Positions 36,435 to 64,000 of a stretch of 64,000 nt of DNA are shown piece after piece (positions within the stretch are counted from its first letter, which is position 1; every line of letters begins with the position of its first letter). The stretch covers positions 372,001 through 436,000 of the forward strand of contig JAHLTZ010000007.1 of assembly GCA_025786725.1 (NCBI GenBank), given 5' to 3'. The translations under genes were made by a program, and so were the position numbers. The DNA comes from Syncephalis fuscata (lineage: Eukaryota > Zoopagomycota > Zoopagomycetes > Zoopagales > Piptocephalidaceae). The notes beneath the pieces are model-generated. The model was not told the DNA's origin. It was given only the letters and a program-made list of their open reading frames with translations, and ran no database searches.

Positions 36435-37526
36435 ATGACTGAACGAGACCGTACCACCTTGTCACCAACACAGTCAGCGTTTAGTACGCTGTCTACTGCA
36501 GAGCTGATTGCTCTGTATGGACCACCGATCGATTTGACCAACGGCTTCAGAGGAGTCGCTCCCGAACCTCATTTATGCCAGGACATTCAGTCACAAACTG
36601 TTCGTCCTGATATTTCAACATATATTCCGTTGTCAAGACGAAGCTCTCGCAGTTCATTAAATTATAATTTGCCTATCACAAATCTCACTTCTGGTAAGTG
36701 ATAATACTTTATTATCAGTTACTATTTGCCCAGTGGCTTATTTTTACAATTTATCTATTTTACTGTAACAGCCCCCCCAACAACAACAGCACCAACTACC
36801 AACACGACTGCTGCTGTCAGTCCTATTTCTTCTTTATTGCCTTCATTAAATCGTCAGAGTATACCAGCTAGTGCATTTAGTTCCAGACATGAAGACGTTA
36901 TAGTCATTGATGACGACGACGACGACACTACTGACACAAATGTTAACATAAACGCTAATTCAAGTAGACGCAGTCCACTGGCGCAGCAATCGACACAGGG
37001 TCGTAAACGAACACGTGAAGAGTTTGAAAATGACGGCGGTAACAACAGCAATAATAATAACAGTGCCCATCAAACTGTAGATAGATTGGATGAGAATACA
37101 ACTGCATTGTCTTCCCAGTCATTGTCCAATGCTGCTGACGGAACAACATCCCAACGGATATCGTCAAAAGCCAAGCGAAATGCTTATATTCGAATTAGCA
37201 ATCCGGAACAAGGAAGTAGTACGGTTACCGCCACCAGTCAGCCATCAACTACGTCCAGTGCTGACAAATCACAATCTAACCAGCAAGAAGCAGTGATACC
37301 GCATCGTTGTCGCCGCCGCCCAGTATTTAAACCATTTATTTGCAGTATTTGCTGGGAGCCGCCTAAAGACATGGGCACAACAAGCTGTGGCCATATATTC
37401 TGTCGTAAGTGTATTCTTACCGCCTTGGACGCAAAGGCGGCTTGTCCTATTTGCCGACGAAAACAAAAAGCCCATCAATTAATTTTTTTGGAATTGAAAT
37501 TACGAGTATCACCAATACTAGTATAA
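36435..37526 (+). CDS. RING-finger ubiquitin ligase with SUMO-interacting motif (STUbL-like, Slx8/RNF4 type)
   Basis: Two exons, 36435-36693 and 36772-37526, give about 337 residues. The N-terminal half is Ser/Thr/Asn-rich and disordered. At the middle lies HEDVIVIDDDDDDTTD, a textbook hydrophobic-acidic SUMO-interacting motif. The C-terminus holds a C3HC4 RING: CSICWEPP, TSCGHIFCRKCI, CPICRRK, followed by a short hydrophobic end. A SIM plus a C-terminal RING is the layout of SUMO-targeted ubiquitin ligases that act on sumoylated nuclear proteins. The intron breaks at TSG|APPTTTAP and keeps the frame. No frame break was seen. Confidence 0.85.
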
Positions 37527-37693: not shown

Positions 37694-39719
37694 TTATGCT
37701 TCACCACGCATAATTCCAATTAACATATAAATGTTAAGGCCAACGAGAAGTGCAGCGATGACACCGCCTGCGATACAAAGAGGCATTGAATTGGCAAAGT
37801 GCTTTTCAGGCTCTATCTTTTCTTGTGTAGTGGCCGATCTGGACAACGAGCCATATACTTTAGTGGCAGCTGACATAAATGACGCTTCCTTCTTTATGGT
37901 TTTTGGCGACAACGTAGACTTGCTAATAGTAATGTTGTCGCTGTTATTATCTGCGGCACAACAATCGTCCAAAGACTCGCAAACGATAGCAGTAGATTCC
38001 ATGTCTGCCGTCTTGCCATTGTCATTTCGGCTTTCTTCATGGCTTGGTCTGTCGATACGGGTGCTAGTTTGTGAGTTTGAGTCGTCTTCTAGACCAACTG
38101 GGCGCATAATTCGTTTGGAGCTGGTAAACCAGATCAATGGTATCATAGCAAATGGTAATTGGACACTTAATGCAACCTGACTGATGACCAATAGATTAGT
38201 GACACCGCTGCGTCCACCAATGATGGCCACAATCAAGGCGGGGATGATGGCGCATGATCGAGTGACGAGTCGACGCAACCATGGACGAATAGTCATACCA
38301 ACAAAGCCTTCCATTACAATTTGACCGGTTAGTGTGGCGGTCAGTGTACTTGACTGTCCAGCGATGAAAAGAGCAACAGCGTATAGAATAGCAGCAGCAG
38401 TGCCAAGATAATGGCCAATTAGGTGGTAGGCATCATACAAATCGGCCGGATCACCGTCGGAACCGTCTTTTGATAGTTTGTCATGAAAGCCGCCAGCACC
38501 AACAATAAGAATTGCAGCATTAATAAATAGAGCTAAGCATAATGCTAATACACAGTCTAGCATGGTAAACTTAATTGCAGCATTGATAGAAGTAAAGGTG
38601 GCATAACCAGGACGACGTTGGCGCTTTGCTGGATCGGAAACAATAGGTGCAGCGGTTCAGCATTGCTTGAAGTGTTCGATTTTGTCGCCTCTTCATTATT
38701 AGGCATAAAAGCACGGGCCTGTACGATCGATGAATGCAAGTAGAGATTGTGAGGCATAACAGTAGCGCCAACAATACCCATAGCTAGATAGATACGTTCA
38801 GGTTCGGTGAAGAGTGAAGCTTCAGGTAGAAAGCCTCGTAGCACTTCCATGGCCGGCGCTTGGACATAGGCCAGTTCTACTGCAAAGCAAACACCCACGG
38901 CAGTCACCATAGCAATAACAAGCCATTCAAACATACGAACAGCCGTCAGTGTACCGTTTTGACGGTAGAACATGAGCAGAATAAGCACGTCCAGTCCCAT
39001 TAGTACTACACCAGCTGGTAATGGTAAACCAAATAGCAGATCTAATGCAATGGCACTGCCGATAACTTCTGCCAAATCTGTTGCGATAATGGCAAGCTCG
39101 CAAACAATATACAACACCCAGTTAAGCCATGGTCTGAATTCTTCACGGCACATACGGGCCAGATCCATGCCAGTGACGACACCCAGCTTGACGGACATCA
39201 TTTGAAGGATGACCGCCGCAATATTAGAGAAGAAAATAACGGTAAGTAGTGAATAGCCGAATTTAGAGCCAGCTAACAATATCAATGGTTAGCACAAGTT
39301 AAATGGACTGCATAGCTGAACAGCAATACCTACCTGCTAAATCGGTCGCCCAATTGCCAGGATCCATGTAACCAACAGCAATGACTATAAATAATTAACA
39401 CAGATCTGATTAATATTTCTTTTTTTTCGACCCGAGATCCTCCGATACTTACGATAACCAGGACCAACAAACGTTAAAAATTTCTTTAGACGTTGCATGT
39501 TGCGACGCATCTGCGCTGGAATAAGCTTTCACGGCCCGTATGAATAGGCAGATCATTATCAAAATCATCTGGCTTTTCATTGAATACTGTTGAATGAGTC
39601 AACGTATGTGTCAGGGGAGAGTGCTCAGGCGTAAATAAAGATTTTGTTTCAGTTATAGAGTGTGCTGTTTTTCTGGACTGGCCAGATGTTGACGGCGGTC
39701 GTGTAGCTTGCGAGTCCAT
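37694..39719 (-). CDS. NRAMP-family divalent metal transporter, copy 1
   Basis: Minus strand, starting MDSQATRPPSTSGQ with a disordered cytosolic N-terminus. After FLTFVGPGY come two introns, then [27 protein letters not shown] with the canonical DPGN metal-binding motif. GATVMPHNLYLHSSIV follows with the second-site Met, and about ten hydrophobic helices in all. Family members import Mn2+/Fe2+ with protons, at the plasma membrane or vacuole. One frame break at about 38655 (between EP and APIVSDPAKRQRR) needs a single nucleotide. A hydrophilic loop of about 110 residues precedes the last helix. A paralogue lies at 49837-52798. Confidence 0.93.
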
Positions 39720-49836: not shown

Positions 49837-52798
49837 ATGCTTTCGCAAAAAGATCAAGATGAGTCAATGCCTCGTCACGAGCATAGAACGCCTAGTCAAT
49901 TAGAAATAGCAGCAGCACCATCTCCATCTAATAATACTATACTAAGACCGGGTATGCTAACCTCTGGTACATTTGGACCAATGACCGAAGTTGCACCTAT
50001 GTCGCATTTAATATCGGCCGAAAATGTTGCTAATATAGCTGCTGCCAACGTGGCTTTTTCTGTCGTACGTTCGGATTCAAATGGCTCCACCAGGATATCA
50101 GTTGATTCAGCTACTCGCGATGCATCCTATAGATCGCGTAAATTGCCTGGTAAATCTACCACGCCCCGAAAATTATTTAATAATAAGCAGGTCGGTTTGG
50201 CTCCTTCACCATCGCCCAGTGATATAGGACTAGGTATTACATATTCGGCACCTTCCAGTCCCACCGTATCCACGATGGCTGAGTCTCCAGCGCCAACCAG
50301 CGATTTCACCACTAGTCCTACTTACAACGTAGTACAGACACGGTGTTTATCAAGTCGTTTTCCTAAACATCAAATATCATTAGACAATAGTGCAGCTGTA
50401 GTTCAGGTTGAAGCCATACAGGCATTTACAAACGTTAGAACGCCCGAATCTGCTACTATTGCAACCGACAGATTGAACCGTAGTATAGCAACAAAGCAAA
50501 GCCAAACTTTTTACGACGGCAATTTGGCAATCAAACTAATAACAATAATAATAGTAATAATAATAATAGTAGTAGTGGTAATAGTGGTAATAGTAGTGAT
50601 TCATCCTACGAAAGCCAGGCCCGTGAACTTTCAGGTTGGAGTAGAACTTGCCAAAGTGTACACAGCAGCCAAGTGAATAGTATTTATAATTCACGAGGTG
50701 CTACCAATACTCATCACGCAACCAAGAAACAGTCACGTTTTTTAGCTTTAACTTCCAAAATTGGTGGTTCATTACGACGATTTTTGGCGTTTGTAGGACC
50801 AGGATTTAGTAAGTGGCTAAAATAATTTACAAGCTATACTAAGCAATATTATAATAAATTTTACACAGTGGTAGCCATTGGTTATTTAGATTCTGGTCAC
50901 TGGGCATCAGATTTGGCTGGTAAGTCAATGATATATACAAATTAATATTACTAAATTTATAATTAGCTGGTTCACGTTTTGGATATTCTTTATTATTCAT
51001 TTTGCTAATTTCCAATTTGGCTGCCTGTCTTTTTCAATCGATGGCGGCCCGTTTAGGAGTAGTTACCGGGCGTGACTTGGCGGAAATGTGTCGTATTGAA
51101 TTTCCAAAATGGATATATTGGCCATTATATGTCATAAATGAGCTTGGCATCTTTGCCATCGAATTAACAGAGGTAATAGGCAGTGCAGTTGCCATCGAGC
51201 TACTTTTTGGTGTACCATTACCGATAGGAATATGTATTACTTCATTGGATGTATTTGTTCTACTGTTGGCTTATCGACCACAACGTAGCCTTTGGTCGGT
51301 ACGATTTATTGAATGTCTGGCCATTGCCATGATCATTGGCGTTGGTGCGTGTCTTGTGGCACTATTAAAGCATGCACAACCAGTATTCAGCAAGGTTGCA
51401 TCAGGTTTACTTCCCGATAGTGCAGTGATGCAGATAGAACAAGGTCGATTATTTGTGGCCATGGCGCTCATCGGAGCCACAGTTATGCCACATAATTTAT
51501 TTTTGCACTCTCATGCAGTAAAAGCACGAGTCTACGAATCAAAATCCTCGCCAGAAATATTTGATAATGATTCTCTGGATTCTAAGCGTAATTCTATATT
51601 GTATTGTAGTCCAGTGCAACCATCGGAGCTTCAGAAAAAACCAAAATATAGAACACCAAAAAATCTTCGTCGCGCTATCTGCTACTCAATCATCGACTCA
51701 AGTTTGGCATTGACTATCGCTCTATTAATCAACATGTCCGTTCTAATTTTGGCTGGCACTACATTCTATGACCAAAGTAGTGAAATTGCACACTCACTTA
51801 AAGGTGGTGACTCAAATAACAGTAAAAGTATAGAAATAGTAGATTTGTATGATGCCCATAGATTAATAGGTAGACAATTGGGCAAAGGTGCCGCAACATT
51901 GTTTGCCGTGGCATTGTTAGTTGCAGGACAGTGCGGTGCAGTGATTAGCACTATTGCAGGCCAATCTATTATGGAAGGCTTTATTCGCTGGCGATGCTCA
52001 CCTATTTTACGACGTTTAATAACTCGTATATGTGCGATGATACCTGCAATGATCATTGCGTCAACAGCAGGAAGAGACGGGATTATGCGATTGTTGGTGT
52101 TTAGCCATGTAGTACTGGGTATACAGGTACCATTTGCAATTATCCCGCTTGTTTGGTTCACCGGAAAGGCAAGAATTATGCGATCGACACACCAAGAATT
52201 GCCACCTAGTAACACCAACATATCGCCTACTGTCATTGTATCGTCGCCGGAAATGGGACATACTCCTTACTCTAACAAAGTACCTCATTTACCGCAGTTC
52301 AGCAAAGCAGTTTTAGATGGAAGCGGAAACTTTTATGATCAACGTAATGTTTCTGGACCTGCTCGAATTCCATTATCATATGCCATAACAAAAGAAATTC
52401 TATTTGATAGAGATGATGAAATGCAGCAGCTTAACTTAGGCAACGAACTAACTACACCCATCATTCCTATGGCGGAGAATTCGGCACGCCGCAGTAGTCA
52501 GCTTATGCATCCATACGATGTATATACGGATAGTCAAAATGAAACTACATCTGCACATCTATCGTTGGACAACACCACGCTAGCAACTACAGATATTAAT
52601 AGGAAGTTACAGCACAATTGCTTTGATTATTCCTATGATAATTTACACAACGGCTATAATACAAAAGATGTTTCAACTGAAGAAAATACATCAGTGGAGA
52701 GTTATAAAGCCGCGCTATGGCAGCAAGTGCTTGGTTGGTTAGTTGGTGGAGGTATAGCAGCAATTGCTATTGCACTTATTATTATTATTATTATTTAG
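49837..52798 (+). CDS. NRAMP-family transporter, copy 2, with noncanonical DSGH motif
   Basis: Starts MLSQKDQDESMPRHEHRTP. A disordered N-terminus of about 300 residues includes an Asn/Ser run (about 50540-50600) and ends RRFLAFVGPGF. After an intron comes MVAIGYLDSGHWASDLA, where all normal NRAMPs have DPGN(W/L). The rest follows the family: SRFGYSLLFILLISNLAA, ELTEVIGSAVAIELLFG, IGATVMPHNLFLHSHAV with the Met retained. A long cytosolic loop then precedes the last helix (LGWLVGGGIAAIAIALIII). The change of Pro to Ser and Asn to His in the first metal-binding turn implies altered ion selectivity or a sensor role. A frame break at about 50525 (AATTTGGC) needs one T to reach the Asn/Ser run. 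Confidence 0.92.
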
Positions 52799-56860: not shown

Positions 56861-59417
56861 GTTGTAATAAATTCGAATGACGGCAATAAAGAAATGACTG
56901 AAAATATCGTTTACAAGAAATCGACTTATTCCGGCTATTTAAAAAATAGCGCCAAGATTTGGCTAGACTTGTTTTACAAAAATGTAGTAACATATTAAAA
57001 ATACCAGCCAATAGACGTGATGCTAACGTACCCCTGTTTCACTTGTAAATTTTACCTACTGAGGGCATCTATATTTTTGTTTTATAAAACTTTATTGAAG
57101 CTGTTTTATTATTGCCGAGTATTAATAGTCACTACCGCACCTCATCAATAGCTAATGAATACCTGACTTTTGTCTAAAAAGGCGATATTTTCTTGGCAAA
57201 TTATTGAAAATTTTAATCATAATGATGTGTCCGTTTGATTTTTTTAAATTTTTTTAATACCAGACACAATTAAATTAATTAATTAAATAAAACTCATTTG
57301 ATTAAAACTAAATACAATAGATAAATATCTACTTACTTTTATTTTTATCGTAGTTATATGGGCTAAACAAGCACTTATTGCTACCGTTTATCATACCAAA
57401 TAAAGGTTATTGTCCTAGTATAGATATTGGTCAGGAAAATGCTGTTCGGAAATGTATATCGCTTATTATGGAAGAATCGTAGCATAATTTATAGTTATTC
57501 AGATATAATGGTCAAGTATAGACATATTAGATGTGTAATTTAATTGTTATTACTACAATATGTCGTTTAGTAACTATAACTTTATCACTATTATTGCTTT
57601 ATTTAACTGCAGTAAAATAGCAATATAGTAGAATTGTTTATATAATACGGCAATTTTTGAGTATATGTATTCCATTAATTTCCATATTATTGCTAATTTT
57701 CAACGCGTTAGTATCTTCTACATTAAGTAATTGTATTAGTGATCGTTTAGTTTAATTCGCACTTTTCAGCTTTGGAGTATTAAGTGAAATCATAAGCAAT
57801 GTTCTATTATTGAAGTAATGTGCAGTTTCAATTTTTTGTCAAACAAACATTTAGGGACTTTATACTAATTGGCTTAGCTGGTGTCTGTGTAGGCGTGGGT
57901 GCACTTAGAAATCTACAGCAGACTTTTACACGCTTGTTGGTACAAATTATTAAAATTATAAGTTATAGTGCCAATAAAATATTTAGTAGTCAGCATTCAT
58001 CAATTTAATTTTATAAATTAGTTACATTATTATATAAATGCTTTCACAGCTTTATTAAACACTATTTACAATTCTTTGTTTTCTTTGCGTTGGCTTAGTT
58101 TAATGTTGTGTTGTTCCGGTCGCATCAGCAACAGCCAACTTTTGATAAACGCAGTTCAGCATAGCATAACTACAATGATTTGCTATAGGTTAAGCCAGTA
58201 AGCCTTTGAGCTGCTAATTGTTTTTTCATTGATTTCTGCTTTAATTTTTTCTTCTATATTTCATCTTGCTTGACTTGTTATGATTGGTTTCAGAAATGTG
58301 GATATAACTTAGGCCTTGAATGATTATCAATTGATATGCAATCCATTGACATTATGCACTCGAAATTGCTAGTATTTGACTAGTATTTTCTATTGTGTCT
58401 AGTCCAGTGTCTGCATATTTTATTGCGTGTAATTTAACCAATGCAATTTAGCCTACAGCAGAAGACTAATGACGAAAATGACTTGTTGGAATGTTCCATT
58501 GTTGAAAACGTCACGATGAATTATACTACGAACAGTACTTATTGTATAGTCGATTTCAGGTAATTTGGATCAGCCGTCATTTGAGTGATGGCAGTTGCAC
58601 AGCATGTAGCATGATATGCCTGGATGTGATACATTGTGAATTCAAAGCAATGATTGCCCCCATAAAAATGAGCATAATGTCGAATGAAATGCATACATGT
58701 ACCAATCAATACATTTTATAATTTAAGCAATTATAAGTGGCTTATGTATGGCAGTAAAAACCTGTATAAAATACCAGTTTGATACATTAAACTTGTTTTT
58801 GCGTCAATGTTGTACGCTATTTGTATGTATGCAGATATTGGGACCCGAGTCATTTAGTGGAAACAACAGCAAAGACATCATTATCGTTTTTATAAAACCA
58901 AATAATGTACTTGTTCTCACCAATAGTTAGATCGTGTAATAGAAAATACAGGCTAACATGCTATTTTTATAACATATGTACTGGATTATTATCATTGTCA
59001 CAGTACTCGTGCGAATAACTGCCAGATTGAAGTAAAGACCGGACAGGTTATGCGCTATTTTGTATGTATGTAGATATTGGGACCCGAGTCATTTAGTGGA
59101 AGTGACAGTAAAGACATCATTATCGTTCTGCAAAACCAAATAATATACTTGTTCTCACCAAATAGTTGGCCCGTGTAACAAAAAATACAGGATAATGTAC
59201 ATGTCTCTATCGCATATGTACTGCTCATTGGAATTGCCGCGTTATTTGTGTAAATGCCGAGAAGACAATCAAAGGCTGAGAGCATGCTGTTATACTATGA
59301 ATCTATTGGTACACTCGCACCTCAAACCATTATTTGGATTGTTTTATTGGTCCATACTACACATTAATGGTATATCTCGTATACTGCAGTATACTAGCAT
59401 TTCAGCATAATCATAAG
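56861..59417. other. Intergenic region with a 170-nt direct repeat
   Basis: AT-rich DNA without a supportable gene. Small open frames at 57820 and 59195 have no recognisable content. The notable feature is the direct repeat 58811-58983 / 59050-59223, just upstream of the secreted-protein gene. Confidence 0.5.
58811..59223. repeat. Direct repeat pair (58811-58983 and 59050-59223)
   Basis: Two copies of about 170 nt, offset by 239 nt, share blocks such as GATATTGGGACCCGAGTCAT, AAAGACATCATTATCGTT and TACTTGTTCTCACCAA, at roughly 85 % identity. They lie 200-600 nt upstream of the TATA box of the micro-exon gene and may be duplicated regulatory DNA or a small dispersed element. Confidence 0.8.
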
Positions 59418-59426
59418 TATAAATAG
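59418..59426 (+). promoter_or_regulatory. Candidate TATA box of the micro-exon gene
   Basis: TATAAATAG lies 136 nt before the ATG at 59562. No ATG occurs between the expected transcript start (about 30 nt downstream) and 59562, so that ATG would be the first one met by a scanning ribosome. Confidence 0.5.
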
Positions 59427-59561
59427 TCCACAAAATATACACAACCAACTGCGATATCATCACCACACTCTACTCTCTGCTATACACACACTACTCTCCA
59501 TTCTATACCAACCACACTCTACTATTTCTTTTATTTGTTTGTTTTAACAAATCAGTATTAC

Positions 59562-62500
59562 ATGAAGCTTTCCATGCCGTCGTTTTCACCATTGTCGTTG
59601 TGACTATTGTGGCCAGTACAACTATGGTGGATGCTAAACCAGCCTTAGTTCGTCGTGGTATGTTGCAGTGGCAATAAATATGTCATATAATTTTGTCTAC
59701 TAACAATATTTCTAAATAATAATTATATTAGATGGTAAGTCGTATTGTATATTAACTGATTATGCGCTAATTATATACCACACACTGTGTATATTAACAA
59801 CTTAATATTAATAGCATGTAAGTTATATTGTATATTAATTGAACATTGGCTAATCGTATATTATGTCTCATGTGCATCAATGACTTAATACTAATAGGTC
59901 GTAAGTAGCATTGTATGTGCTTACTTATAAATTAATTATATACAATGCGTGATGTATATCAATAACTTAATGCCATAGATGGTAAGGTGTATTGTGTATT
60001 AAATGACTATGTGCTAATCTTATACTATGCACCGTGTATATTAATAACTTAATACCAATAGATTGTAAGTTATATTATATATTAGCTGAGTATTGGCTAA
60101 CTATAGTATGTATTGTGTGTATCAATAACTTAATAACAATAGGCGGCAAGTAGTATTGTGTATTGATTGACTATGCATTAATTATATGTAATGCGCTGTG
60201 TATTAACGACTTAATATAATAGAACGTAAGTCGTATTGTATATTATTTTTATTTTGAAAAGCTTGTGAACCCCCGCTGCACATAATTAAAGAATTTGCGC
60301 TGCTTCCCACTATATTTGGACTTTTCCAAATTAACGGGTGGACTGCCGCGTTTTTGCGCAAACCTAGTCCATATAGATTTTACACGGGGGCCATCTTCTT
60401 TTGAATGATGCTACACAGCACTATTCCCCTGAAGTTGGTTCCAATTGTTTTTCCTTGGCTATTCTGGCCAAGGTTTTGTTTCCGGACCTACTTATTGGAT
60501 TCTGGTTTGCAATTTGTTTACTAGAGAAAACTGGGGGGGGGGAATTTTCCACTTAAGGATTGGTTCAAACCTCAGTTTGAACCCAAAGCCTTCAGCTTGG
60601 AAGACGCGTAATATTATATATTAATTGATTATGCACTAATTGTATATTATGTACTGTGCGCATCAATAACTTGGTGGAATAGTTAGTAAGTAACACGGTA
60701 TATTAACTGAATATGCGCTAACTATATACCATGCACCATGTATATCAATGACTTAATATTAATAGAGTGTAGGTTATATTGTACATTAATTGAGCGTTGT
60801 CTAATTACATGTTCTGCATCATGTGTATCAATAACTTAATATTAATAGGCCGTAAGTTGTATTGTATATTAATTGGTTATGCATTAATTATGTGTCATGC
60901 ACTGTGTGGCAACGACTTAATATATTAGTGAGTAAGTAGTGTTGTGTATTAGCTGACTATACATTAACTATGCTATTTACTAATTGTAATTATTACTTAA
61001 TATTAATAGAAGGTAAGTGGTATTGTATATTAATTGAATATACATTGACTGCTATTTACTGATGGTACTAATTATTTAATATTAATAGATAGTAAGTAGT
61101 ATTGTATACTATTTGAATATATATTTACTATGCTACTTACTAATTGTACTAATTATTTACTATAATAGATGGTAAGTGATATTGGATATTATTTGACTAT
61201 ACATCGATTGCTATTTACTAATTATGCTAATTATTTATTATTAATAGGTCGTAAGTAACACTATATATTAATTGACTATACATTAACTATGCTATTTACT
61301 AACTGTACCAATTATTTAATATTAATAGAATGTAAGCTATATTGTATATTAACTGATCATATGTTAATTATGCTATTTACTGCTTATACTAATTATTTAA
61401 TATTAATAGTGGTAAGTGATATTGTATATCAATTAACTATACATTGACTATAATATTTACTAATTGTGCCAATTATTTAATATTAATAGCTGGTAAGTGA
61501 TATTGTATATTATTTGATTATACATTAACCATGCTATTTACTGATGGTATTAATTATTTAATATTAATAGACCGTAGGTGATATTATATATTGTTTGACT
61601 ATACATTAACTATGCTATTTACTGATTGTGCCAACTATTTAATATTAATAGCCGGTAAGTGGTATTTTATATTATTTGATTATACATTAACCATGCTATT
61701 TACTGATTGTACCGATTATTTAATATTAACAGGCCGTAAGTGGTATTTTATATTAATTGACTATATACTAATTATGCTATTTACTGATTATACCTATTAC
61801 TTAATACTAATAGTGCGTAAGTAACATTGTATATTAACTGACTATACATTAATCATGCTATTTACTGATTGTACCGATTATTTAATATTAATAGTTTGTA
61901 AGTTGTGTTATATATTAATAATTATACATTAATTATGCTTTTTACTGATTGTACCAATTTTTTAATATTAATAGGGTGTAAGTGGTATTGTATATTAATT
62001 GACTATACATTAACTATGTATTTACTGATTGTACCTATTATTTAATATTGATAGGTCGTAAGTGTTATTATATATTAACTGACTATATACTAATTATGCT
62101 ATTTACTGATGGTATTGCTTATTTAATATTAATAGACCGTAAGTGGTATTGTATATTAACTTACTATATACTAACTATGCTATTTACTGATTGTGCCAAC
62201 TATGTAATATTAATAGACCGTAAGTGATATTGTATATTAACTGCCTATACATTAATTATACTATTTAATGATGATGTTAATTATTTAATATTAATAGAAT
62301 GTATGTTAAATTTTGGATTAATTGAATATGCACTAATCACATGCTATTTATTGTATGCATCAACAAATTAATATTAATAGGCTGTAAGTAGTATTATGTA
62401 TTAACTAACTATGCACTAATTTTATACCATGTACTGTGTTCATCAACAACTTAATATAATAGACCGTAGGTTGTATTATGTGTTAATTAAATACTTACTA

Positions 62501-63452
62501 ATTATATATTATGTATTGTATTCATTAACAACCTAATATCATAGTTCGTATGTTGTATTGCTTATTAAATGGCTACTCACTAATTATGTATCATATATTG
62601 TATCCATCAACAACTTAATACTAATAGAATGTAAGTCATATCGTATATTAATTGGTCATTGGCTAATTATATACCATGTATTGTAATATCAATAACTTAA
62701 TATTAGCCAAATGTAATTTGTGTTGTATATCAATTAAGCATTAGCTAATTATATATCACGTATTGCGTGTATTAATGACTTAATATTAATAGGCTGTAAG
62801 TAGTATTGTATGTTAACTGACTATACATTAATTATATAACATATAATATATTTATTTGTAAATACAGGATAATCGATGGCTTCAAGACATCAGCATTGGT
62901 AGTGCAATTGAACCACTATTCCAATACACTTTAGGTATATATTCGGTGAAAAGCAAGATCATTTGACAACTAAGCCGTCCAGTCTATTTATATATCAAGT
63001 TTTGGCCAATGCTCCGGTTTATCCAGTCTTTAACCAATGGAATCATTATTTTATCAACAAACTTGCATCTAGTTGTTTCTATTCAACTATGCAAGCTTAT
63101 AGTAATAAACCTATGGTTCCATCTTAACTATGTACAATCAAATTGCTATATCTATAATCATTTTCTATTTGCATTTACTATTAAAAAGTTTAATTGGCAC
63201 ATGTCATACCACCGGCTCATTTTTCATTTATAAATAATACAGATTGTATATAACAAAGTTGGAAACGGCGTTTTGATACTATTTACTATGGCTTTGTATA
63301 CTGATATGAAACAATCACTACAGCAGTAAGTATAATAATATTTATTAAACAATGTACGTTCTAATTTCTATGCTGTTCAATATAGTGATATTCAGTTGGA
63401 ACAATTAACAAATTATACATTAAATAGGCTGAGCGTATGCAATAGTCAATAA
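59562..63452 (+). CDS. Secreted protein gene split by about 38 introns, with 34 consecutive micro-exons of mostly one codon
   Basis: Exon 1 (59562-59657) encodes a signal peptide (hydrophobic AVVFTIVVVTIVAS, then VDA-KPALVRR) and ends in phase 1. The ATG joins this frame only if one T is restored in CTTTCC (59568-59573), giving MKLFHAVVF. Intron 1 (59658-59731) has GTATGT and a perfect CTACTAAC branch site. Then follow 34 micro-exons (59732-62795), 32 of 3 nt, one of 2 nt (TG, 61410-61411) and one of 6 nt (62707-62712), each between TAG and GTAAGT-type sites. Spliced, they give 35 open codons: DACHDCELKCLKDNGQL, then LTPACFGVTTNATFNPNA. Normal exons follow: 62868-62934 (DNRWLQDISIGSAIEPLF...), about 63000-63101, about 63259-63325 and 63386-63452 (ends RLSVCNSQ). 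The product is about 167 residues, Cys-containing, of unknown family. Confidence 0.8.
59735..62867 (+). repeat. Tandem array of about 34 homologous intron units (76-80 nt each)
   Basis: Each unit starts GTAAGT (rarely GTAGGT, GTATGT, GTAAGG, GTAATT, or GCAAGT at 60146). It continues with TATTGTATATTAATTGACTA and TTAACTATGCTATTTACTGA and ends TTTAATATTAATAG. Units are clearly homologous throughout, most strongly between 61000 and 62300. They are separated by a 3-nt slot that differs between units (ATG, CAT, GTC, GCG, AAC, TTA, AGT, GCC, CTG, CCG, TGC, TTT, GGT and others). Conserved splice ends around a hypervariable codon-sized slot are what a string of micro-exons predicts. A plain satellite would not protect splice signals while varying the slot. 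Confidence 0.85.
60247..60603. mobile_element. About 350-nt structured, GC-richer insertion within the intron array
   Basis: This block interrupts the array about 20 nt into one unit and has no resemblance to the units. It is much less AT-rich and holds several hairpins: TTGGA/TCCAA at 60327-60340, TGGACT...AGTCCA at about 60340-60372, CCTTGGC/GCCAAGG at about 60454-60474, and GGTTCAAAC/GTTTGAACC at about 60561-60582. It also has a run of 10 G. No reading frame or terminal repeats are evident. The neighbouring micro-exons AAC and TTA join to a Leu codon if the block is spliced out with the intron, so the protein frame is not disturbed. Confidence 0.65.
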
Positions 63453-64000
63453 TAATGTCAGAGATAAACAGAAAGCGTCATGAGATAGAATAGAATGAAT
63501 GAATGAATAATAAAATAGCATGGTTGAGAGTGAACGGTGAATGTCATTGTGATAGATGGATAGCGTGAAGATAATTGGCACTCATCATTATGCCATAGTT
63601 TTTTCATGTTTTAATATGCTCACATTGGAGATTTTATTCAATATAAATTACGTGTTTATTTAATATATATTTGGTTCTATCTTTCTATTGATACTGAATA
63701 TGTAAATGTAGACTAAAAGTATAAGATATTATTACGCTTAAGACAAATCATAATAATGAAATTGTTTCATACGATTGATAATTATTAATTCATCTTATAA
63801 AAATATATCCCACTTGCCCCACCATACTATCTGATTTAAAAGCGGCAATGCTTAAGGAAACGCTGCAATGTAAGATTTTAATATAACAAAGTTAGCCGAT
63901 TTGTGCTACATGCGCACATTGATGTCATGAACCAAGCTTGGCTGTATTCAACGTGATCATGCTACACTTTGTTTGACACTATACCTCCTGTACTATTGCC
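63453..64000. other. Intergenic tail of the window
   Basis: AT-rich 3' flank of the micro-exon gene. I see no further gene before the window ends. Confidence 0.5.

Follow-up and report, generated by a model that had tools for sequence, protein, structure and literature searches.

A Syncephalis fuscata gene family predicted to encode its mature peptides one codon per exon

Micro-exon genes (MEGs) have been defined operationally as genes with at least seven exons, half or more of which are micro-exons – under 70 nt long, with a length divisible by 3 – and at least four of these in a run (PMC7653826). In the flatworm MEGs described, runs of small symmetric exons with lengths in multiples of three encode secreted proteins at the parasite-host interface, and exon skipping has been reported (PMC7653826, PMC4350168). 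The bicycle genes of aphids, as described in PMC9168663, encode putative effectors and have about 17 exons on average; many of these are internal and small, codon position 2 is the starting point of nearly all of them, and the protein diverges faster than the gene structure. Smaller exons have been described singly: an exon of 1 nt in Fusarium CYP621A, for which an intronless relative gave support (PMC12940212), microexons of 1–15 nt in plants (PMC8831610), and 3-nt exons in mouse and rat Ncam and in Drosophila TnT (PMC8042270). In these accounts such exons are far below exon-definition size, are missed by annotation, and are isolated in ordinary genes. At the ratchet points of recursive splicing, an acceptor and a donor are juxtaposed within an apparent long intron (PMC8605326).

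The locus described here is from Syncephalis fuscata, a fungus of a genus called mycoparasitic in one source (PMC10386755). The sequence analysed, referred to as the window, is 64,000 nucleotides of contig JAHLTZ010000007.1 (positions 372,001–436,000, forward strand); coordinates count from its first letter, and all features of the locus are on the + strand. The array it contains is very probably, judging from sequence comparison, a frame-broken member of a large S. fuscata family in which the mature peptide is split into exons of one codon each. The family shares with flatworm MEGs the runs of symmetric exons, but its host genome is fungal, its internal exons are nearly all exactly one codon with up to 42 in a row, its product is only predicted to be secreted, and selection points to consecutive joining rather than skipping. 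The aphid bicycle genes, which it resembles in its many small internal exons of one phase and its fast-diverging protein, are insect genes with larger exons and cysteine-tyrosine-cysteine motifs. Unlike single ultra-small exons, the arrays make up the whole mature protein; unlike at ratchet points, a codon sits between acceptor and donor and is apparently retained in the product. No description of an array of one-codon exons was found among the titles and abstract openings listed by searches of open-access literature. The family looks like a convergent, extreme variant of the micro-exon gene, at the limit where each exon of the mature protein is a single codon. Dozens of introns 3 nt apart would make it a test of intron definition without a usable exon, and of the order of intron removal.

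The array in the window

A TATA-like box (TATAAATA, 59418–59425), apparently part of the family promoter, precedes exon 1, and sibling loci are similar in sequence there. Up to about 1 kb of this upstream sequence is common to many sibling loci, and two diverged copies of a segment (GCAGATATTGGGACCCGAGTCATTTAGTGGAA...) lie about 240 bp apart within 58830–59300. No Rfam family matched 58500–64000 at gathering scores. Exon 1 (59562–59657), delimited by a scored parse and by comparison with siblings, encodes a signal-peptide-like leader followed by LVRR; in the siblings it ends in phase 1, with CGTCGT G followed by GTATGTT of the intron. Intron 1 (59658–59731) is 74 nt long and contains a TACTAAC motif resembling a branch point.

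The array (59732–62795) consists of tandem units of about 81 bp with splice signals at every junction. A pattern search and the scored parse both identified 34 slots separated by GTAAGT...TAG introns. Of these, 32 measure 3 nt, in agreement with the initial annotation; one of the others is 2 nt (TG, 61410–61411) and one 6 nt (CCAAAT, 62707–62712). The micro-exons start at 59732 (ATG), 59815 (CAT), 59898 (GTC), 59979 (ATG), 60062 (ATT), 60143 (GCG), 60223 (AAC), 60683 (TTA), 60766 (AGT), 60849 (GCC), 60929 (TGA), 61010 (AAG), 61089 (ATA), 61169 (ATG), 61248 (GTC), 61329 (AAT), 61410 (TG), 61490 (CTG), 61571 (ACC), 61652 (CCG), 61733 (GCC), 61814 (TGC), 61895 (TTT), 61975 (GGT), 62055 (GTC), 62136 (ACC), 62217 (ACC), 62298 (AAT), 62381 (GCT), 62463 (ACC), 62545 (TTC), 62628 (AAT), 62707 (CCAAAT) and 62793 (GCT).

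One array intron contains an insert of about 360 nt (60245–60610, ends approximate). It has 42 matches in the genome, including itself and one 48-nt fragment, the rest at 84–92% identity, and several are inside or beside sibling arrays (local matches in L010, L011, L012, L017, L027 and L042–L044). The insert may be a short mobile element favouring array introns, or a functional part of the intron.

The last intron (62796–62867) is 72 nt, the length also seen in most of the siblings whose last exon was parsed. The last exon (62868–63125), supported by homology to siblings and retrocopies, has a phase-1 TAA at 62870–62872 followed by a 3' UTR with AATAAA at 63104–63109; its probable far end, 63125, is the point where homology to the retrocopies stops. 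A phase-0 reading through this exon to 63450 was considered and rejected – in unbroken siblings, as in the intronless relatives, the stop is in phase 1. The initial annotation had extended coding exons to 63450 and had proposed that the 2-nt slot works as a switch into phase 0. Neither proposal held up: exons to 63450 are unlikely because homology to the retrocopies ends near 63125, just past AATAAA, and no support was found for coding beyond 62872; unbroken siblings remain in phase 1 throughout, and the 2-nt slot, which breaks the frame of the window copy, is not common to them. In addition, the ATG frame of exon 1 runs into a TGA inside the exon, a disruption seen in only one sibling, L012. 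Before the break, the window copy reads DACHDCELKCLKDNGQ from the exon-1 junction, which is the family pattern. As assembled, the window copy is frame-broken, through pseudogenization or an assembly error.

Sibling arrays and the coding capacity of the joined slots

A DNA search of the S. fuscata genome gave at least 269 matches (best 40 of 328 candidates scored). 27 sibling loci were parsed, 20 fetched first and 7 later, for a total of 28 arrays with that of the window. The micro-exon array design is present in all 27, with up to 42 consecutive micro-exons of 3 nt, or rarely 6 nt; two arrays, L045 and L022, the latter cut by a contig end, have only 6 slots. Predicted models of unbroken siblings fall within the operational MEG rule, among them L026 and L019, whose internal exons, each 3 or 6 nt long, number 35 and 42. 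The seven later loci were all in the results of a leader-exon search, and all have slots (6 to 41 each), though three (L039–L041) were already known to hold boundary patterns. In that search, at least about 75 places had a leader exon followed by a stop within 43 codons in an intron-like manner (hand tally of the best 150 of 313 candidates).

Most array introns are 74–80 nt long, and their GTAAGT donors and TAG acceptors lie close to consensus. In 638 parsed units there are 637 AG acceptors, 622 GT and 14 GC donors, and 547 instances of GTAAGT, sites which the parser favours. A boundary pattern in which 23 bases are specified was matched 622 times genome-wide, versus 0 for the reversed pattern. 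Since this pattern catches only 134 of the 638 parsed units, the genome would hold roughly 3,000 micro-exons in total, if the fetched loci are typical.

Among the 826 slots of the 28 arrays, 781 are 3 nt, 36 are 6 nt and nine break the frame, so that 817 have a length that is a multiple of three. The nine frame-breaking slots, eight of which are short, are found in 8 of the 28 arrays; many copies may thus be pseudogenes or contain assembly indels, and both decay and assembly deletions could be responsible. Among individual arrays, L021 is frame-broken, L013 has one in-frame stop, and the parse of L011 is doubtful.

When exon 1 is followed by the slots in phase 1, 15 arrays together have a single stop in 453 codons, versus a mean of 27.6 and a minimum of 15 in 5000 trials in which slots were shuffled within arrays. 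The same arrays encode 81 cysteines, versus a shuffled mean of 39.8. This set leaves out the window array, L011, L012, L021 and L025, which are frame-broken or doubtful, and L018, a near copy of L016. The stops depend on which slots are joined. In 21 arrays, joining neighbouring slots (lag 1) creates a stop at 1 of 614 junctions, while skipping one, two or three slots (lags 2–4) creates 39/593, 41/573 and 44/552. Seven arrays outside the parser training have 0/181 junction stops at lag 1 and 13/174, 17/167, 14/160 and 8/153 at lags 2–5; all 28 arrays together have 1/795. Related copies are not independent (L040 resembles L024, and L018 is nearly identical to L016), though many of the decoded middles differ strongly. 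In 12 of the 16 complete arrays without a broken slot, the reading ends with the codon that spans the last junction or with the one after it, where intronless siblings also stop; in L014, L024, L028 and L043 the stop comes within nine codons of the last exon, and L013 also has its earlier stop.

Much of what the initial annotation proposed for the array is borne out by these siblings. Predicted codon-by-codon micro-exons in a fungus recur at every sibling locus parsed, and the phase 1 that it took to be set by the leader exon is kept as the single phase at every junction of unbroken arrays. The cysteine pattern it had noticed, in the form C-x2-C-x2-4-C, is found in 17 of the 28 arrays (shuffled mean 0.68, maximum 5). 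It is absent from L011, L012 and L042, which are broken, from the cut L022, from the six-slot L045, and from L013, L023, L039, L040, L041 and L043. Homologues do correspond to the predicted codons; a lack of such correspondence had been named as refuting.

Intronless relatives and alternative explanations

The public S. fuscata proteins P0121 and P0124 have the same type of leader and a six-cysteine framework, and P0122 has eight cysteines; the genes for all three are continuous ORFs. In such intronless siblings, exon 1 runs directly into codons and a TAA, followed by the same 3' sequence as the last exon of the arrays. The decoded peptide of L026 aligns to the P0124 ORF with a score of 109 over 35 residues. 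None of 300 slot shuffles scored as high (mean 27.9, s.d. 5.2, maximum 45). Read in its two alternative phases, L026 scored 18 and 16. In 4 of 13 arrays (L026, L010, L016 and L024) the match to an ORF beat all 300 shuffles. The 12 arrays other than L026 have a weaker best match, and L013 falls below its shuffled mean. The 13 arrays do not include the window array, L011, L012, L021, L025, L018 or the incomplete L022 and L023.

Some of the intronless copies have features of retrocopies. L036 is homologous to the arrays from about 58 nt before the ATG to just past AATAAA. Next come six A, of which arrays also have the first two, and then a 14-base stretch that matches the 5' flank at 12 of 14 positions. 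A match this good has a frequency of 0.002 in composition shuffles and 0.016 in random windows, and is likely a target duplication. An A-run is also present in both C212 copies (L033 and L037, which overlap). From these features, L036, L033 and L037 look like copies of fully spliced, polyadenylated RNA. The intronless copies are not all simple retrocopies, because L030–L032 and array genes have about 0.7–1 kb of upstream and more than 1 kb of downstream sequence in common, and L038, despite its A-run, shares about 1 kb of upstream sequence with arrays. By their flanks, these four may have arisen by replacement in place or may represent an older form. Beside L033, L036 and L037 (C212, C104) is a second small leader ORF that starts MQLYIGVAFVV...MPALIRR, is lysine-rich and perhaps represents another peptide family.

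One public protein model follows an array in part. P0125 is reproduced exactly when exon 1 of L026 is joined to CCA, AAG, ATC and the intron sequence that comes next. The model has two 3-nt exons in a row, with borders as predicted, then reads through into intron 3, which could reflect incomplete splicing. P0127 looks alike. This class of peptide genes has been overlooked by annotation, and the one array model that was traced enters an intron after two micro-exons.

In the favoured explanation, exon 1, with its hydrophobic leader ending in LVRR, leaves phase 1, the micro-exons would be joined in order, and the last exon supplies the stop, usually immediately. All array introns would be removed constitutively and by intron definition, the exons all being too short to be recognised. 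It is highly improbable that 59658–62867 is instead a noncoding intronic minisatellite excised as one intron, perhaps by recursive splicing, with the slots mere variable bases. The tandem units of about 81 bp with splice signals at their junctions are what such a sequence would have, and recursive splice sites are described as juxtaposed acceptors and donors (PMC8605326), but phase-1 junctions are nearly stop-free at lag 1 only, slot lengths are multiples of three in almost every case, the decoded L026 peptide is homologous to a continuous ORF, and one-step removal would yield a leader followed by almost nothing. The stop and homology tests thus largely contradict the minisatellite reading.

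Alternative skipping of micro-exons, by which one gene would yield many peptide variants as in flatworm MEGs, accepts the slots as coding and is unlikely, if less so. Exons of 3 and 6 nt are symmetric and could be skipped without loss of frame, and the 14 GC donors and some weak donors might permit it. Skipping a single exon, though, brings stops back to about the shuffled rate (the 39/593 versus 1/614 above), an indirect sign that selection has acted on consecutive joining, and the intronless siblings carry full-length frameworks. It is also quite unlikely that the working, ancestral form of the family is intronless, with the arrays as later, mostly dead derivatives. The flanks that L030–L032 and L038 share with arrays, by which they are not simple retrocopies, and the 8 of 28 arrays that are frame-broken are consistent with this order of events; in-place replacement by cDNA could also explain L030–L032, and the A-runs of L036, L033 and L037, with the likely target duplication in L036, are as expected of copies of spliced RNA. 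Independent intron gains would not give one phase at all junctions of the unbroken arrays, and codon-level constraint is still visible in the arrays.

Decoded peptides and possible turnover of the slots

Under the one-codon-per-exon reading, unbroken siblings decode to MKLSIAVVCTIVVALIA..VDANPALVRR or slight variants of it, after which comes a hypervariable peptide. In an alignment of decoded peptides, the N-terminus (MKLSIAVVCTIVVALIA...) is hydrophobic and conserved and is followed by LVRR, presumably a Kex2-type protease processing site at which the leader would be cleaved. The joined slots of long unbroken arrays give about 30–50 residues, usually with six cysteines in a framework of about C-x2-C-x3-C-xn-C-x3-5-C-x3-5-C. 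The decoded peptide is probably secreted, with effector-like variation; the peptides would act extracellularly, perhaps as effectors of the mycoparasite S. fuscata. Two other public proteins, P0129 and P0130, have the same leader with tails that are repetitive or differently spaced, so the leader may serve several types of mature peptide.

With a profile of 12 decoded peptides, 11 of 218 candidates were hits at E<=10, and every one of them was from Syncephalis fuscata. There was no flatworm MEG or aphid bicycle protein among these 11 in a search that needs shared 5-residue words and could miss distant relatives. Sequence searches of Pfam and PDB assigned no family to the decoded peptides: the single Pfam hit (E 0.053) was to one of the 12, and the best hit of the PDB profile search was Grindelwald (E 4.2).

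In two pairs of arrays, slots have diverged more than introns. Between L019 and the frame-broken L021, 71 of 125 slot sites differ versus 543 of 3361 intron sites, and between L027 and L028, 23 of 117 versus 293 of 3229. In the close pair L016/L018, no slot site differs (0/102) versus 78 of 3473 intron sites. Within arrays, about half of the slot sites differ in the 29 unit pairs whose introns are 2–8% apart; between arrays 0–5% apart in introns (62 unit pairs), there is no excess of slot change. The contrast between slots and introns could arise in part from non-corresponding units or from gene conversion confined to introns.

A unit-level alignment of L027 and L028 has conserved ends, with units gained or lost in the middle. 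Positional homology of introns by best match gave a mixed result, with 95 of 202 N-terminal units and 38 of 116 C-terminal units within one place. The slot differences and the unit-level alignment can be read to mean that array ends are conserved, middles diversify and one-codon cassettes turn over, with the turnover seen at the level of units only, since the base-level L027/L028 alignment has no clean 81-base gaps.

The balance tips slightly towards a codon-cassette system, in which each intron-flanked unit of about 81 bp carries one residue, and recombination adds, removes and swaps single amino acids. Gain or loss of a cassette would make the peptide one residue longer or shorter with the frame intact, because the micro-exons are symmetric, and selection would diversify the codons. 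If so, recombination between near-identical introns would never shift the frame, providing a natural route by which a peptide is lengthened and reshuffled residue by residue. About 3,000 one-codon exons would be spliced constitutively without any exon definition, and the usual pattern would be reversed – introns conserved, codons hypervariable.

Elsewhere in the window, the ORF at 51002–52798 is an NRAMP transporter that matches an S. fuscata protein at 100% over 66% of the query. The ORFs at 37694–39285 resemble this transporter by eye only, and the ORF at 36726–37526 encodes a RING finger.
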